From: Oscillospiraceae bacterium
Lineage (GTDB): Bacteria > Bacillota > Clostridia > Oscillospirales > SIG519
DNA: 64,000 nt
Direction: 5' to 3'
NCBI GenBank assembly: GCA_015067255.1
Contig: SVMS01000001.1
Span: forward strand, 1 to 64,000
In this document: in pieces, positions 29,237 through 39,578 of the stretch
How the letters are laid out: the number at the start of each line of letters is the position of its first letter
Position numbering within the stretch: the stretch's first letter is position 1
Program-made: the position numbers and the translations under genes
The notes under the pieces: model-generated
What the model was told of the DNA's origin: nothing
Seen by the model: only the letters and a program-made list of their open reading frames with translations
Database searches by the model: none

Positions 29237-30472
29237 TTACTTAATTTTTCTGCACTCTAAATAAAATCTCTTATCGTAGCTGTGTCCCATTGAAAAGGTT
29301 TTTCTCGGCAGCGCGCCGTTTGAAATAACCTTATCAAAAAGCTCGTTTTTATCAAGGCAGGGAAGCAAAATTCCTATTGAATTTTCCTGCTGACAAAGCT
29401 TTTCGACGGTGTCCTCTCCGTGAATATAGTCCACCTCTCCGCCATTATTTTCAATATATTTATCAATAAACTGCTGTACTGTTCCTGCGGCAAGGTCGCA
29501 AGGAGGATTTTTTATAAAGATTTTTTCAAGCTTATTTTTATACAATATTTCAAAGCTTTGAGTTGCTTCATTCTGAGCGCATATTTCAAATTCATTTTTC
29601 ATTTCTTTTAAGAAATTATCACCGTCCACCTTGAAAATCACACGGTGGATAGGCTCAAACTCCAAAGCTTCACTATGTAGATTTACAAGCTCACAAAGAG
29701 CAAAGCGTGCAGGGTGATTTAAGTAATATTCGGGCTCAGTTGTCTTTTTAAGAGCTTCATAGCAAGCCTTTGCGGTTGCAAGGGAATGGTTTCCGTCACC
29801 CACTGCAATCAAAAGCGGATTTTCATTTTTTTCAAAGGCTTTCTCTGCCAATAAATCCAAAGCCTTGGAAACCTTTTCACATTCCTCTTTATTTAAAGCA
29901 TAGCCCTTTATTTTTCCGCCCTTTTCCATAAGCTCAAAATCATATACAGTATCTGAGCTTGGAGCTATACTCTCTATAACACTTTTTTCTCTGTCATCTA
30001 TAAGAAGCATAATATGAGGTGCTTCCAAGGAAGCATTTTTTCTTACAGCAACTCTCGGCGGTATTCTCTCAAGAACAGTGCCCTCTGTTGCCCTTATCTG
30101 ACTTTGAGAGCCTTTTTCATAAGAATATTGCTCCAAATCAACGGCACCTATAAGTCCTTTTCTGACTTTGCCGTCATTCTGAGTTCTTTCTATATAGAAA
30201 AAGCTGTTTTTATACTCTTCAAAAGCATTCTCTTCAAGAAGCTTATCCATATTTTTATTTATATTTTCAATACGGTCCTGTACATTTTTATCATTGAGAT
30301 AAATTTCAGGTAAGGTTATTTTCAGACAAGAGGGATAATCTCCAACGATTTTCTCTACTCTTTGCCAGTATTCAGGCTCGCTTGTATACTGGTCGCAAGC
30401 TACAACGCTCCATTTTTCAAAGGGCGCATTTTTGATAAGCAATATATCAGCAGGATAAAAAGGCATTTTCAT
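29237..30472 (-). CDS. DUF1015 family protein
   Basis: A 411-residue cytosolic protein of the DUF1015/COG4198 family. Typical segments are VVACDQYTSEPEYW near residue 25, LIDDREKSVIE near residue 165, VGDGNHSLATAK near residue 230 and the final LPRKTFSMGH. The invariant GDGNHS looks like an active or metal site, but the reaction of the family is not known to me. ATG 30472 is chosen, with AAAGGA upstream; an in-frame TTG seven codons earlier overlaps that site. Confidence 0.85.
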   Translation of the reverse strand: MKMPFYPADILLIKNAPFEKWSVVACDQYTSEPEYWQRVEKIVGDYPSCLKITLPEIYLNDKNVQDRIENINKNMDKLLEENAFEEYKNSFFYIERTQNDGKVRKGLIGAVDLEQYSYEKGSQSQIRATEGTVLERIPPRVAVRKNASLEAPHIMLLIDDREKSVIESIAPSSDTVYDFELMEKGGKIKGYALNKEECEKVSKALDLLAEKAFEKNENPLLIAVGDGNHSLATAKACYEALKKTTEPEYYLNHPARFALCELVNLHSEALEFEPIHRVIFKVDGDNFLKEMKNEFEICAQNEATQSFEILYKNKLEKIFIKNPPCDLAAGTVQQFIDKYIENNGGEVDYIHGEDTVEKLCQQENSIGILLPCLDKNELFDKVISNGALPRKTFSMGHSYDKRFYLECRKIK

Positions 30473-30560
30473 TTTTCGGGTATTTCCTTTCAAATTTTAT
30501 CATATATAAATAATATCACATAAACACTTTTTTGTCTACAAAAAATAAGGAGATATTTTT

Positions 30561-31519: not shown

Positions 31520-32122
31520 ATGAAAAAAATCAAGGTTTTCTTTTTATCACTTCTTTTAATTTTTGCTGTACTTTTCTCCTGCAGTGCTATTACTGTCCTT
31601 GCCACAGCTAAGAGCGTTTCTCAAAAGGTATTCCGTTTACACATTGTAGCAAACTCAAATTCTGCTGAGGACCAGATAGAAAAATATGCTTTAAGAGATG
31701 AAATACTAAGCAAATGCTCATATATTTTTCAAAATGCAAAAGATGCAAATGAAGCTATGTATCTGTCAGAGCAAAACAAAGAAAAAATACTCAATATTGC
31801 AAAAGAATTTTCAGACAGAGACATTGAGATAAGTATTGAAAACAAGTTTTTCCCCACTAAAGAATATGAAAACGATATTCTTTTACCTGCGGGAAATTAT
31901 AACGCATTAGTAATAAAAATAGGACAAGGCAAGGGTGAAAACTGGTGGTGCGTACTTTTTCCGCAAATCTGCTTAAGCGGAAGCGTTAAAAATGATATGG
32001 AAGACATTTTAAATGAAAAAGAGCTTGAGATAACAAAGAAGCCTTCCAGCAAGAAGGCTTCTGTAAGATTTAAGTTTATTGAAATTTTCAACAAAATAGT
32101 CGAAGATATAAAAAGCATTTAA
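31520..32122 (+). CDS. spoIIR: Stage II sporulation protein R
   Basis: A 200-residue exported signalling protein, made in the forespore, that triggers SpoIIGA to process pro-SigE in the mother cell. A signal helix covers residues 6-28. The conserved block FRLHIVANSNSAEDQ is followed by ALRDEIL, and LPAGNYNALVIKIG runs into NWWCVLFPQIC. The stop codon interlocks with that of the convergent trmD fusion gene. Confidence 0.93.
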   Translation: MKKIKVFFLSLLLIFAVLFSCSAITVLATAKSVSQKVFRLHIVANSNSAEDQIEKYALRDEILSKCSYIFQNAKDANEAMYLSEQNKEKILNIAKEFSDRDIEISIENKFFPTKEYENDILLPAGNYNALVIKIGQGKGENWWCVLFPQICLSGSVKNDMEDILNEKELEITKKPSSKKASVRFKFIEIFNKIVEDIKSI

Positions 32123-34338
32123 AAAGCTATATACTCTGAAAGCTTATTCTTTATTTTTTCAACAGTTCCTGCTGTACGGGCCTCTATATTAAGCACCATT
32201 AGAGGATCGTGGAGAGAAAGGCGAAGCAAAAACCAGCCCTTTTCATTCTCGCACTTAAAGTCTGCCCGAATGCCCTCGAAATTTTCCTTAAGCATTGTAA
32301 ATTCGTCAGAAGCTTCTACAAACTCCTGTACTTTTTCGAGCATTTCAATACCCTGTTTTTTAAAATCGCTGTCTGTAAGCTTAATTCTTATTTCTGTGCT
32401 TTCAACGGGATATTCAAGCTTTGAAATATTATCAAAAAGATTTTTATTATCCTTTGAAAGTAATGACATTTCAATTAACAGCTTACAGATAATATATGCG
32501 CCGTCATCAAGAAAATAGTTTTCAGAGAATGCGCCGTGTCCCGAGGTTTCCACCGCCAAGGGACAGTAAATATTTTCTTTGTTTAAGCGTTTGCACTCGT
32601 TTATTACGTTTTTATAGCCTCTTTTAAAGCGACGGTGTGTAACGCCTATATCCTCTAAAAATTCCGCAAGCTCACTTGACGTAACAGAGTCGGTGACTAT
32701 GACGGGATTTTTTTTGTCGCAATCTCTCATAATTACAGTTGCAAGCAAGGCAATCAAAGCGTTTTTGTTTATCTCTTTTCCGTCACCCGAAACAGCTGCC
32801 GCACGGTCAACGTCGGTGTCAAAAATAACACCCATATCGGCTTTATTATCTAAGACTGCCTTTGTTATTGACTCCATAGCTTCTTTATCTTCAGGATTGG
32901 GAATATGGTTGGGAAAGCTTCCGTCAGGCTCAAGATAAAGGCTTCCTTTTGTATCTGCGCCCAAAGGCTTCAAAACCTTTTCCACAAAGAAGCCGCCCGC
33001 ACCGTTTCCTGCATCAACTACTATTTTTTTATTTAAAAGAGGCTTTTGCAAGCCTGTTTTAAGGCGGATTTTTTCAACTAAGGAGTCTGCATATGCGCTT
33101 ATTATATCTGCCTTTAAAATTTTTCCCTCGCCTTGAGAAAATTCGCCCTTAACTGCTATCTCAATAAGCTTTTTTATTTCAAAGCTTTCCAGTCCCCCAT
33201 CCTCACAGAAGAATTTCATTCCGTTGCGATTAAAGGGTAAATGGCTTGCAGTTATCATAATTGAGCCGTCATACTTAAAGCCGTCAAGCACAGTAGACAT
33301 AAACATACTCGGGGTTGTGGCAAGAGAGCAGTCATAAACTGTTGCTGAGCTTTTTTTAAGTCCCTTTGCCGCCGCATTTAATAAATCGGGGCCCGAAAGC
33401 CTTGAATCCCGTCCTATTCCGATTTTAAGCTCATTTACAGCCTTGCCTGTTTTTACCGATAAAAACTCGGCAAAGGCTCTTGCTAAAAGCTCTGCAACTG
33501 CGGGGGTTAAATTTACATTTTCCCCCTCTGTTCCTTCAAGAGCTATTCCTCTTATATCGCTTCCGTTCTGAAGCTTAGATAATTCATTAAGCATTTTATT
33601 TTTCCTTGTATTATTTCTTTTTATTTTTGCAGCAAATTTCTTTTCTTTTTCTGTCAAATCTGCATTCAAAAGCATTTCGGGACGTTTAGCCGCTGTTGTT
33701 TCGATAGATTTTTCACGTCTAAACTCGCATATTTTTTTGTGGTGTCCGTTCAATAGCACCTCAGGCACTCTTTTTCCCATAAAAATTTCAGGTCTTGTAT
33801 AATGGGGGTATTCCAAAAGGGAATTAAAATGGCTTTCATCAGTAAAGCAGTCTTCTTCGGGCAAAACACCCTCAACCATTCTTGCAACGGTATCTATAAG
33901 CACCATAGCAGGAAGCTCTCCGCCTGTAAGCACATAGTCGCCCACTGAGATTTCCTCGTCTACTATCATATCAAGAATACGTTGGTCAACGCCCTCATAA
34001 TGACCGCAGAGAATTACAATATTATCATATTTCAAAAGCTCCGCTGCCTTTTTCTGAGTCAGCGTTTTTCCCTTTGGGGACATATACACGGTATGTACAT
34101 TTTTCAAATCCTTTGTAACGGCTTTAAAGCAGTTGTATATAGGCTCTGCTTTCATAACCATTCCCCGTGAGCCGCCGTAAGGAGAGTCGTCCGTTTTTCT
34201 GTGCTTGTCGGTTGTGTATTCCCTTATATCGTGTGCATTTATCTGCAAAATGTTATTTTTCTGAGCTCTGCCTATTATACTTGAATCCATAACCGCCCGA
34301 ATTTGCTCGGGGAAAATCGTAAGAACATCAAATCGCAT
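32119..34338 (-). CDS. trmD: TrmD tRNA methyltransferase fused in frame to phosphohexomutase
   Basis: One 739-codon frame holds two complete enzymes. Residues 1-248 are TrmD, which methylates G37 of tRNA. DDSPYGGSRGM, ILCGHYEGVDQR and the trefoil-knot loop SVGDYVLTGGELP are intact. Residues 249-739 are a phosphomannomutase/phosphoglucomutase with the phosphoserine loop TASHLPFNRNG, the Mg site DTDVDRAA and the sugar loop VETSGHGAF. No stop divides them. ATG 33594 (codon 249) has its own AAGGA eight bases upstream, so the mutase may also start there. TrmD overlaps rimM (TGATG). Confidence 0.85.
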   Translation of the reverse strand: MRFDVLTIFPEQIRAVMDSSIIGRAQKNNILQINAHDIREYTTDKHRKTDDSPYGGSRGMVMKAEPIYNCFKAVTKDLKNVHTVYMSPKGKTLTQKKAAELLKYDNIVILCGHYEGVDQRILDMIVDEEISVGDYVLTGGELPAMVLIDTVARMVEGVLPEEDCFTDESHFNSLLEYPHYTRPEIFMGKRVPEVLLNGHHKKICEFRREKSIETTAAKRPEMLLNADLTEKEKKFAAKIKRNNTRKNKMLNELSKLQNGSDIRGIALEGTEGENVNLTPAVAELLARAFAEFLSVKTGKAVNELKIGIGRDSRLSGPDLLNAAAKGLKKSSATVYDCSLATTPSMFMSTVLDGFKYDGSIMITASHLPFNRNGMKFFCEDGGLESFEIKKLIEIAVKGEFSQGEGKILKADIISAYADSLVEKIRLKTGLQKPLLNKKIVVDAGNGAGGFFVEKVLKPLGADTKGSLYLEPDGSFPNHIPNPEDKEAMESITKAVLDNKADMGVIFDTDVDRAAAVSGDGKEINKNALIALLATVIMRDCDKKNPVIVTDSVTSSELAEFLEDIGVTHRRFKRGYKNVINECKRLNKENIYCPLAVETSGHGAFSENYFLDDGAYIICKLLIEMSLLSKDNKNLFDNISKLEYPVESTEIRIKLTDSDFKKQGIEMLEKVQEFVEASDEFTMLKENFEGIRADFKCENEKGWFLLRLSLHDPLMVLNIEARTAGTVEKIKNKLSEYIAF

Positions 34339-34826
34339 CAGTCAAAAAGCCCTTTCAACGGTCTTATTTTCATTATTTTTTCATTTATATCGGTTTCTAT
34401 TATACACTCTTCAACAGCAGGAACAAGATATTCCCTGCTTTCACCCTTTATAACATAGACGTCCTTTGAGCTGTTTTGTAAAACCTCGGTTATTTTTCCA
34501 TATCTTTCGTTTGTATCGGCATCAAAAACCTCTACTCCGATTATATCCTTGATAAAATATACGTCTTCCTCAAGCTCGAAATCGTTCTCATCGGCATAAA
34601 GGATTTTATTTTTAAGCTTTTCGGCATTTTCTATGTTATCTATACCCTCAAGGTGAACAAGCAAATGGTTTTTATGAAGCTTTGCATCTTCTATATTATA
34701 CTCTGTGCCGTCCTTTAAAAACACGGTGTCCAGCTCAAAAAAGACCTCTGCGCTGTCGCACCAGTATTCTACCTTAAGGTCCCCTCTTATGCCGTGGGTA
34801 TTAACTATTTTTCCGACCTCTATCAT
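34338..34826 (-). CDS. rimM: Ribosome maturation factor RimM
   Basis: A 162-residue 16S-processing protein with the N-terminal RimM barrel (GKIVNTHGIRGDLKV, near residue 5) and a C-terminal PRC barrel (YFIKDIIGVEVFD, then REYLVPAVEECI). It helps assemble the 30S head around S19. It sits directly upstream of trmD and overlaps its start, the usual rimM-trmD order. Confidence 0.93.
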   Translation of the reverse strand: MIEVGKIVNTHGIRGDLKVEYWCDSAEVFFELDTVFLKDGTEYNIEDAKLHKNHLLVHLEGIDNIENAEKLKNKILYADENDFELEEDVYFIKDIIGVEVFDADTNERYGKITEVLQNSSKDVYVIKGESREYLVPAVEECIIETDINEKIMKIRPLKGLFD

Positions 34827-34843: not shown

Positions 34844-36055
34844 CTATTTGTTCAAAAACTTATTCATAAGCTCCTGTCCCTGTGCTACATAAATTCCCGT
34901 TGAAGCCGCATTTTTTTCGGTATAGGTAAGTCCGCTTGCCTTAATATCGGCTCTTTGTTTATTTGTCCATATAATATAGGGTACAGGCTCTCTTGAATGA
35001 GTTTTAGTGATGAGAGGTGTGGGGTGGTCAGGCATAACAAGAACTGAAATTTCTTCATTTTCAAATTCTTTTAAAATATATCCCACTACTTTTTCATCTA
35101 TAAGCTCAATAGCTTTAACCTTGTTTTCCACCTCGTGTCTGTGTCCTGCTTCGTCGGGCGCTTCCATATGGATATATACAAAATCTTTTCCGTCCTTCAA
35201 AGCCTGTACCGCTGCTTTTGCTTTTCCTTCAAAGTTTGTAGTTACAGTACCTGTAGCACCTTCTACCTCGATAACCTGCATATCGGCGCAGATACCTATT
35301 CCTTTTATAAGGTCAACAGCGGAGATAACACAGCCCGAAAGACCTGTCTTTTCCTTAAAGTTTGAAAGCATCGGCTTCTTGCCCTGTCCCCAAAGCCAGA
35401 TAGAGTTTGCAGGACGTAGTCCTCTTTCGATTCTTTTAAGATTTACAGGGTGATTTTTAAGAAGCTCATAGCTCTTTTTCATAAACTCAGTTATAAGCTC
35501 TGCGTCCTCGCCCTTGGGCATATATTCCTTTATGCATTTATCGGAAATGTCGTGAGGCGGTGTTAAATCATAATCAGTATGTGTTCCGTCAAATACCATA
35601 CAGTGACGGTAGCTGATACCGGGATAAAAGGTTATTTTATCGGTGTGTAAATTTTCATTTATATAGTTTATAAGCTGAGTAGACTCCTCTGTTGTAATCT
35701 CGTCAGCGCTGTAATCAACCATTGTTTTATCTTCGTAATTTTCTTCGTCAGAAAGCGTTACTGTATTACAGCGGAATGTAACGTCACTGTCCTTAAGCTT
35801 TATTCCTATGGAAACAGCCTCAAGGGGAGAACGGCCCGTATAATATTTTTCGGGAGCATATCCCATAGCGCTTAAATTTGCAACATCGCTTCCTGGCGCA
35901 AAGCCGTCGGGTACTGTTTTAACCATTCCCAGCTCTCCCTGCTGACACAGCTTATCTATATTGGGCTTTTTTGCACATTCAAGAGGTGTTCTTCCGTTTA
36001 ATTCGGGTACTGCCTGGTCTGCCATACCGTCGCCTAAAATAACAATATATTTCAT
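34844..36055 (-). CDS. apgM: Cofactor-independent phosphoglycerate mutase
   Basis: A 403-residue metalloenzyme of the archaeal-type ApgM family in the alkaline phosphatase superfamily. ILGDGMADQ at the start binds metal and the catalytic Ser is in APGSDVANLSAMGY near residue 55. HMEAPDEAGHRHE and VMPDHPTPL carry the later metal ligands. It interconverts 3- and 2-phosphoglycerate. Some relatives in Firmicutes and Chloroflexi are proposed to phosphorylate homoserine, but no threonine genes lie here. Its start overlaps the birA stop by 4 bp. Confidence 0.87.
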   Translation of the reverse strand: MKYIVILGDGMADQAVPELNGRTPLECAKKPNIDKLCQQGELGMVKTVPDGFAPGSDVANLSAMGYAPEKYYTGRSPLEAVSIGIKLKDSDVTFRCNTVTLSDEENYEDKTMVDYSADEITTEESTQLINYINENLHTDKITFYPGISYRHCMVFDGTHTDYDLTPPHDISDKCIKEYMPKGEDAELITEFMKKSYELLKNHPVNLKRIERGLRPANSIWLWGQGKKPMLSNFKEKTGLSGCVISAVDLIKGIGICADMQVIEVEGATGTVTTNFEGKAKAAVQALKDGKDFVYIHMEAPDEAGHRHEVENKVKAIELIDEKVVGYILKEFENEEISVLVMPDHPTPLITKTHSREPVPYIIWTNKQRADIKASGLTYTEKNAASTGIYVAQGQELMNKFLNK

Positions 36056-37544: not shown

Positions 37545-39578
37545 TTATTTTTCTATTATTGAATATCCAAGAGAACTCAATAGCTCATCCGCAGAGGTAA
37601 TAAGCATTTCGTCATAAATGTAATAGTCATAATCTGCGGCAGAACATCCGTTACCTGCTTTTTGAGCAAGGTAGGAGGAAAGGTCATTAAGTCCTTTAAA
37701 TGTGGTAAGACAAGCATGCTTTTTAGCTTCTGTATTCTTCACGTTAAAGCGCACTTTTTTGCCGTCATCCGATTTAACATTGATGCTATTTTTGCTGAGG
37801 GGCAGATATTCATAAAGCAGATGATAAGCATTCCATCTTGCATGTTCCTGAGCAATCAGCGCATTACGAACAGAGAGATTAAAATATTCGTTATAAGCGT
37901 ATTCTTCCTTATGTCTGTGACGCTCATTGATAAGCTCAATATTTGCACTTTTTCCGTCTTTTGTGTAATCGAGGCCAAGCAAATTGAGCTTTACACGCAA
38001 ATTCATTGCCGAATAGATATTGGAATATAAGGTGAAATAATCAAGTTTTTCCCAATCTTTTTCTGCTTTTTTCTGTATGTACTCTTTAAAGTCGGAACGA
38101 TTTCTTTCTTCTTCGCCTGCATACTGCGCAGTATAAACCTCGTTAAGCTTCTTTGCCATTGTGGATAAACTGTCGTTTACAATAACATCGTGATTAAATA
38201 CGCTGTTGCTTTTGCCAAAGTAGGAAACGATTTCATCACTTTGAATGTAAGCAGCTTCGCTTCGTACAAAAATATGATAGTTATTTTGCTCAATAAGAGC
38301 TGTTTTCAATCTTGCGCCGATTTCAATATTATGACAATCTTCCTCGGTATCAACAATAACAAGTGTATAGCTATTTTCCTTTTGCACCTGAGCTTTAATA
38401 GCTGTCAGCACCTTATAGGAAGCAGGAGCCTTATCAATGACAGTTGTTTTAAAAGGTATCTCAGGCAACGGGAAATATTCTGTCGCATTTAATTCGCTAA
38501 GAGCTTCAGACAAGCCGCCGATATTCCATTCTGTAGCATCTATATTGGTATCGCACAAATAGTAATTGACAGGTAATTCTTTATATTCACCATCAAAAGT
38601 AACAAGCTGATTATTCAGCACTGATTGACGATACAGCTCTTGACCGAGTTTTCCAAATCCAAGTATAAATACATTGATTTGTGTTCCTTGTTTAATAGCA
38701 GCATCTTCAATATATATATCAGGCAAATACTTGGTAACGGGATTTTCCTCAGTAAAGGTTCGAGCTACTAATTCATTTATACTAAAAGTATCAATATAGG
38801 CTTCCATACCGCTTTTTTCGATGATTTCACGGCGAATAGTTTCTGCTCTGTCCCCTTCCATTTCTACATATAAGTATATGTTTTTAGCTTTTTCTTCAAC
38901 CTTTTTATATGCAATAAATGTATCGATATAATTCAAAGCTTTTTCGGAATCGGGACAAACAATATTATAACGGGTTGATGTATTTAAATACCAGCTTTTC
39001 AGCAAACGCACAGTAAAATCCTTACGCATAACTGCATAGCCGTCTTCAATAAGCTCTTTTACAGAGGCCTTGCCCACACTATCGTCAAGCAACAATACCG
39101 CATTACAATTTTTGACATAATGAAGTGCCTTGGAGCTATTGCCGACAACAATATCACAAGTGTCTTTTTTCAAAGCCTTTGCAAGACGAAAAGCACTGAC
39201 AATAGAATTGCTGAAAGCCTCTACTGTTGCGGTAATGGTAGTTAGCATTGCAACAATAACGCCTATCATAAAAGTAAAGGGAAAGAGTACAAATTCCTTC
39301 GCAAAGCTTGTTACCATTTCCACTTTAGCTTCACCGACAAATAGTTTGATTGACGGTCCTATACAACCAATAAAGCCTAAAATATAATTGGACTCTTCTC
39401 CAAGCTCTATTACTTTATACAGAAACGGAACAAAGTATAACGACATATTGAGTGCAAAAACAACGCCGACAAATACCGCAGTTTCATTTAACCTTCTTTT
39501 TTGAAACCTGCCAACGATAAAACGCAGCAGCATCAATACCTCGATAATTAAAATTAAGATAATAATTATGTTCCACAT
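37545..39578 (-). CDS. Membrane protein with Rossmann and RyR-like domains
   Basis: A 677-residue protein of unknown function. Residues 1-20, about 32-55 and 100-125 are transmembrane helices, with no potassium filter sequence. Two Rossmann-like units follow: one near residues 140-170 and one near 290-320 with VFILGFGKLGQELYR, a TrkA-N type nucleotide loop. The C-terminal 110 residues resemble a ryanodine-receptor (RyR) repeat: AQEHARWNAYHLLYEYLP, then KKHACLTTFKGL and YDYYIYDEML. This suggests a ligand-sensing membrane protein. It is a single gene with its own promoter (TTGTAA-17-TATAAT) and AAGGAG site. Confidence 0.6.
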   Translation of the reverse strand: MWNIIIILILIIEVLMLLRFIVGRFQKRRLNETAVFVGVVFALNMSLYFVPFLYKVIELGEESNYILGFIGCIGPSIKLFVGEAKVEMVTSFAKEFVLFPFTFMIGVIVAMLTTITATVEAFSNSIVSAFRLAKALKKDTCDIVVGNSSKALHYVKNCNAVLLLDDSVGKASVKELIEDGYAVMRKDFTVRLLKSWYLNTSTRYNIVCPDSEKALNYIDTFIAYKKVEEKAKNIYLYVEMEGDRAETIRREIIEKSGMEAYIDTFSINELVARTFTEENPVTKYLPDIYIEDAAIKQGTQINVFILGFGKLGQELYRQSVLNNQLVTFDGEYKELPVNYYLCDTNIDATEWNIGGLSEALSELNATEYFPLPEIPFKTTVIDKAPASYKVLTAIKAQVQKENSYTLVIVDTEEDCHNIEIGARLKTALIEQNNYHIFVRSEAAYIQSDEIVSYFGKSNSVFNHDVIVNDSLSTMAKKLNEVYTAQYAGEEERNRSDFKEYIQKKAEKDWEKLDYFTLYSNIYSAMNLRVKLNLLGLDYTKDGKSANIELINERHRHKEEYAYNEYFNLSVRNALIAQEHARWNAYHLLYEYLPLSKNSINVKSDDGKKVRFNVKNTEAKKHACLTTFKGLNDLSSYLAQKAGNGCSAADYDYYIYDEMLITSADELLSSLGYSIIEK

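Follow-up and report, generated by a model that had tools for sequence, protein, structure and literature searches.

We found that a single stop-free frame of 739 codons in a draft genome of an Oscillospiraceae bacterium encodes a complete TrmD protein (amino acids 1 to about 245) and, directly behind it, a complete alpha-phosphohexomutase (amino acids 249-739). The frame lies on the minus strand of the window, by which we mean the whole 64,000-nucleotide stretch of DNA that was analyzed (Table 1). We consider it likely that trmD abutted the mutase gene and then lost only its stop codon, which would yield both a full-length protein and a mutase that starts internally. The join between TrmD and the mutase is real in the sequence given, and is probably real in the cell.

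Table 1. Positions of the fused frame, of its parts and neighbors in the window, and of other TrmD fusions
Feature	Position	Strand	Remarks
trmD-mutase frame	34338 (ATG) to 32119 (TAA)	minus	739 aa, stop-free
TrmD half, tRNA (guanosine-37-N1)-methyltransferase	33595..34338	minus	aa 1-248; Pfam, NCBIfam above cut-off
A-rich, stop-free TrmD tail	33595..33640	minus	both alternative frames have stops nearby
AAGGA, Shine-Dalgarno-like	33603..33607	minus	8 nt before ATG 249, within the trmD coding tail
ATG codon 249	33592..33594	minus	probable ancestral, possibly still used, mutase start; from alignment with orthologue starts
Alpha-phosphohexomutase half	32119..33594	minus	aa 249-739, stop 32119-32121; PGM_PMM I-III
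rimM	34338..34826	minus	directly upstream of trmD, stop overlaps trmD start (TGATG); Pfam RimM
2,3-bisphosphoglycerate-independent phosphoglycerate mutase gene	34844..36055	minus	upstream, same run; Pfam PhosphMutase
SpoIIR gene	31520..32122	plus	convergent, its end overlapping that of the fused gene; Pfam Spore_II_R
DUF1015 gene	29237-30493		1.6 kb from the mutase; M14 peptidase and SpoIIR genes between
TrmD-aldose 1-epimerase loci	L029, L030, L154, L155		genomes G003, G046, G027, G064
TrmD-GNAT acetyltransferase	L137:1102-2232, L138:244-1374, L139:1004-2134		377 aa, three species of genus g18
TrmD running into a fumarate-hydratase-alpha-like protein	L060:6368-7966		533 aa, one Anaerolineales genome

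The frame is not a random ORF, because each of its halves is a complete conserved enzyme. Pfam finds tRNA_m1G_MT at amino acids 23-220 (200.5 bits), followed by PGM_PMM_I (256-397), PGM_PMM_II (415-520) and PGM_PMM_III (525-634). The first-pass annotation had described one 739-codon frame holding a full TrmD and a full phosphohexomutase with intact motifs, and Pfam, NCBIfam and the motif positions all agree with this description.

The TrmD half scores above the cut-offs of two NCBIfam models: the TrmD equivalog NF000648 (amino acids 1-223, 297 bits against a cut-off of 220) and TIGR00088 (290 bits against 195). It contains the motifs GHYEGVD (112-118), VGDYVLTGGELPAM (132-145) and NGHH (197-200). 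The predicted model has the TrmD-type SPOUT fold with a C-terminal helical domain, and it resembles the solved TrmD structures 4YVI and 8BYH, among others, with a TM-score to the target of about 0.9. Going by its full-length match over a curated cut-off, this half is predicted to be a tRNA m1G37 methyltransferase. TrmD works as a dimer, using its C-terminal helical domain (PMC1829167). The genome has one copy of trmD, the one inside the 739-codon frame, which rules out a second trmD elsewhere that would free the fused copy; the essential TrmD function must therefore come from the fused frame.

The mutase half has all of the elements expected, namely domains I-III, the phosphoserine loop, the DxDxDR metal loop, the sugar loop and the phosphate loop. 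Its motifs are TASHLPFNRNG (363-373), FDTDVDR (506-512), ETSGH (597-601) and RLSLHDP (706-712), whose key residues are invariant across 15 orthologues. The fold is predicted with a pLDDT of 90 and is closest to the PMM/PGM structure 1PCJ (TM-score 0.77-0.83). These features place it as a putative member of the alpha-D-phosphohexomutase superfamily. It falls below every GlmM or PMM/PGM equivalog cut-off in NCBIfam (about 221-223 bits of the required 439 for TIGR03990, the best match; 198 of 600 for NF046027; 129 of 447.55 for TIGR01455), and we therefore name no substrate for it. An example of the unexpected reactions found among such mutases is Slr1334, a Glc-1,6-bisphosphate synthase (PMC9426568). 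The orthologues of the mutase half are stand-alone proteins of about 490 amino acids that are 44-59% identical to it. These Clostridia alpha-phosphohexomutases share its domains, active-site motif and start region, but are unfused. The same holds for a plant protein that is named “phosphoglucosamine mutase family protein” and contains the peptide GSIMITASHLPFNR (PMC9344878).

Stand-alone TrmD proteins allow the join to be located closely. The tail of the TrmD half, RPEMLLNADLTEKEKKFAAKIKRNNTRKNK, aligns in frame with RPDLLKKAPLSEDDKKILAKLKRKKRP followed by a stop in L022, and with RPDLLKKAEMTADEKKKVTAFKRRLSRKSK followed by a stop at residue 248 in L021. The aligned proteins end in LAKLKRKKRP at residue 245 (L022) and FKRRLSRKSK at residue 248 (L021), and the corresponding residues in the window, up to 248, are AAKIKRNNTRKNK. 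Most of the unfused TrmDs that we collected are 222-264 amino acids long, and the TrmD part of the frame is of normal length. No added or deleted sequence at the join is visible in comparison with the stand-alone TrmDs. As judged from these alignments, the join has no linker: an ordinary TrmD runs into an ordinary mutase, and only the intervening stop is missing. A helix across the join (230-255) in the first AlphaFold model of the fusion was set aside as unreliable; the alignment behind that model had placed mutase rows on TrmD, which left amino acids 256-409 with low confidence.

The beginning of the mutase half argues for a formerly separate gene. As the first-pass annotation had pointed out, an AAGGA sequence lies eight bases upstream of ATG codon 249, and this spacing holds. 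The mutase half begins MLNELSKLQNGSDIRG, and in the alignment ATG 249 falls where stand-alone orthologues start, for example with MLNDFYKQFKSGTDIRG or MDYKKLQNGSDIRG. Among 1985 internal ATGs in 460 kb of the source genome, 27 (1.4%) have a core Shine-Dalgarno sequence 4-11 nucleotides upstream, as against 95 (47%) of 203 gene starts; the latter figure is inflated because the best among several candidate ATGs was counted for each gene start. ATG 249 is probably the former start of a separate mutase gene, and it may still act as a start codon. The AAGGA sequence also forms part of the codons for the residues TRK, so that it could have persisted by chance, and this counts against stop loss with two products. 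Nonetheless, where the first-pass annotation left a choice between a true fusion and stop loss with two products, the latter is better supported by the Shine-Dalgarno sequence, by the position of ATG 249 at stand-alone starts and by the otherwise unaltered join.

The sequence of events that we propose would begin when two complete, separately evolved genes, trmD and then the mutase gene, came to adjoin, with the ribosome-binding site of the mutase located in or at the trmD tail. The stop codon of trmD alone would then have disappeared. Ribosomes that initiate at the trmD start would make a 739-amino-acid protein that performs m1G37 methylation and carries the mutase on the C-terminal end of TrmD, and those that initiate at ATG 249 would make an additional, free mutase of 491 amino acids. 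Provided that the sequence is correct, the lack of another trmD means that every TrmD in the cell carries the mutase. By analogy with a published fusion, TrmD would be expected to tolerate a domain added after residue 240. Runs of five A look too short for transcriptional slippage to free TrmD. The join need not couple the activities of TrmD and the mutase.

We searched for the same architecture in samples of the order (394 genomes), class (391) and phylum (399), which partly overlap. Apart from the source genome, no sampled genome has a TrmD-phosphohexomutase fusion, although a fusion that is divided between contigs, or whose mutase is far more divergent, would have escaped the search. In the order sample, 77 of the 394 genomes have a match at a stringent cut-off, and all of these except the source genome have the mutase alone or, once, TrmD alone. 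TrmD genes are present in the 80 loci kept from a scan of named genomes, none of them joined to a mutase, and no relative was found in viral contigs. Some candidates were rejected on inspection. The match in G962 (query 209-731, one stop) proved to be a mutase alone, with unrelated sequence in front of it, and L043, listed as matching TrmD over 1-335, is a stand-alone TrmD of 245 amino acids. In several relatives, TrmD frames of 300-450 amino acids owe their extra length to an open frame upstream of the gene. For the searched samples, a fusion that is widespread in relatives is ruled out. In a conserved fusion family the architecture would recur in at least two genomes, and the order, class and phylum samples contain no such case. 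The join is probably young or local to its own lineage. The first-pass annotation knew of no described fusion of these two enzymes, and we also found none in the literature (open-licence papers).

Given that the join is present in only one draft genome, of 54 contigs, it could be an error of sequencing, assembly or consensus, in which case trmD would have a normal stop in the cell, and TrmD and the mutase would be produced separately. The missing stop is seen in one assembly, that of the only genome of the family in the comparison. Short runs of A occur in the A-rich tail, and the other frames have stops beside the join, at codon positions 239, 242 and 247; one small length error or substitution could therefore hide an ordinary gene pair. 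The well-spaced Shine-Dalgarno sequence would also suit such a pair. Closely abutting genes are common in the source genome (141 of 266 same-strand neighbors lie within -60 to +25 nucleotides). However, A+T-rich DNA is expected to have nearby stops in its other frames, so that these stops say little, and the frame is homologous to stand-alone TrmDs almost up to the join (to about amino acids 242-248). Moreover, the neighboring genes scanned, at 24.7-47.6 kb, mostly match whole family profiles, and none looks broken. We regard an error as rather unlikely.

Stop loss that leads to two products also has to be distinguished from a fixed bifunctional enzyme, in which selection would favor one chain through co-localization, dosage or regulation of both activities. 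All catalytic motifs are kept in both halves. In addition, four species that belong to another genus of the order retain a fusion of TrmD with an aldose epimerase, and TrmD can therefore be fused lastingly to a carbohydrate enzyme. By contrast, the join studied here is conserved in no second genome of the order, class and phylum samples, and it retains an internal Shine-Dalgarno sequence and start, unlike most conserved fusions. To our knowledge, no biochemical link exists between m1G37 and this mutase, which also counts against such an enzyme, and we consider it improbable. Still less probable is a nearly neutral, strain-level stop-loss mutation that is being lost again and is functionally meaningless even in its own species. 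Its singleton status and the lack of any other visible change at the join would fit, as would a comparable singleton, TrmD with a fumarase-alpha-like protein, among 114 collected TrmD genes; however, a tail of 491 amino acids on an essential enzyme is expected to have some cost, and only population data could separate this scenario from the one that we prefer. The first-pass annotation also raised a true fusion that would tie m1G37 methylation of tRNA to hexose-phosphate metabolism, but none of the relatives searched has the architecture. A lineage-fixed bifunctional TrmD-phosphohexomutase that connects the hexose-phosphate state with m1G37 methylation and is accompanied by a free, internally started mutase is very improbable. 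Nothing supports a regulatory connection of hexose phosphates with m1G37, and so far the join gives no sign that sugar metabolism and tRNA modification are linked.

The first-pass annotation placed trmD after rimM, and the rimM gene indeed directly precedes it. Along the minus strand, the genes for biotin ligase and phosphoglycerate mutase come first, followed by rimM and trmD-mutase, with overlaps or gaps of a few bases. The usual neighbors of trmD are rpsP and rplS. In the source genome, these lie on other contigs than the fused gene (rpsP at G000:C21:5292-5468, rplS at G000:C10:36371-36697), which means that the classical rpsP-rimM-trmD-rplS operon has been split. A DUF1015 gene precedes the mutase gene by about 40 nucleotides in genus g8, which belongs to the same order (L184, L185). 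Because a DUF1015 gene is near the mutase both there and in the window, the mutase may be in its old neighborhood, with rimM-trmD having come in; this idea is drawn from two genomes. Three further genomes (L195, L201, L202) have a DUF1015 gene at a distance of about 8-9 kb from trmD, and a functional link is possible. Elsewhere in the window, a 677-amino-acid protein (37545-39578) has a hydrophobic N-terminal region and no Pfam match.

The view of the first-pass annotation that trmD normally stands alone is mostly right, but fusions at the C-terminus of TrmD have been published, and we found more in the same order. The published case is TrmD-Tm1570 (PF01746-PF09936), first noted in PMC1829167 and exemplified by Calditerrivibrio nitroreducens E4THH1 (PDB 8B1N; PMC11187310), in which TrmD is active and dimeric (PMC11187310). 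Separate, adjacent, overlapping and fused states of the TrmD and Tm1570 genes are all known (PMC11187310, PMC1829167). The structure 8B1N is the best fold match to our predicted fusion model. As in the window, a second complete protein follows a complete TrmD after about residue 240. However, the partner in TrmD-Tm1570 is a second SPOUT methyltransferase, and 66 proteins have this fusion, whereas the partner in the window is a sugar-phosphate enzyme, and its fusion with TrmD occurs in one genome.

The TrmD-aldose 1-epimerase proteins (PF01263; 547-548 amino acids) occur in four species of one genus (g4) in the same order, and look like a conserved fusion. Like the window frame, they place a carbohydrate enzyme C-terminal to TrmD in a single frame; unlike it, they are common to four species and have a join without a strong Shine-Dalgarno-backed start. 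The TrmD-GNAT fusions (L137-L142) are also C-terminal and in the same order. In addition to those in g18, GNAT-like tails occur in two genera of family f13. The extensions in L140, L141, L142 and L148 are about 120-185 amino acids long, with a GNAT domain in L142, and the tails of L140 and L148 match nothing in Pfam; one genome of the order has a 120-amino-acid tail without a Pfam match. These fusions differ from the window in having a short GNAT or GNAT-like domain, in occurring in several species and in mostly lacking a Shine-Dalgarno-backed internal start. No start codon with a 5-nucleotide Shine-Dalgarno match was found near the join in the epimerase or GNAT fusions, except in the GNAT-like protein of g66 (GGAGG before ATG 269, AAAGG before ATG 225). 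The fumarase-like fusion, whose partner was tentatively identified by eye from the sequence, resembles the window in that a Shine-Dalgarno-backed start is kept exactly at the start of the partner (GTG 253 with GGAGG).

Together, the window and the other TrmD fusions suggest a route from a neighboring gene, through stop loss with the internal start kept, to loss of the internal start. We hypothesize from this small sample that stop loss comes first, with the window at an early stage, and that the internal start is lost later. The route is testable, because its stages may coexist within one bacterial order. As TrmD is essential and an antibacterial target, its C-terminal tolerance of added domains is of practical interest. 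The C-terminus of TrmD is a recurrent fusion site, and the window fusion is a new partner at this known site, and of limited novelty.
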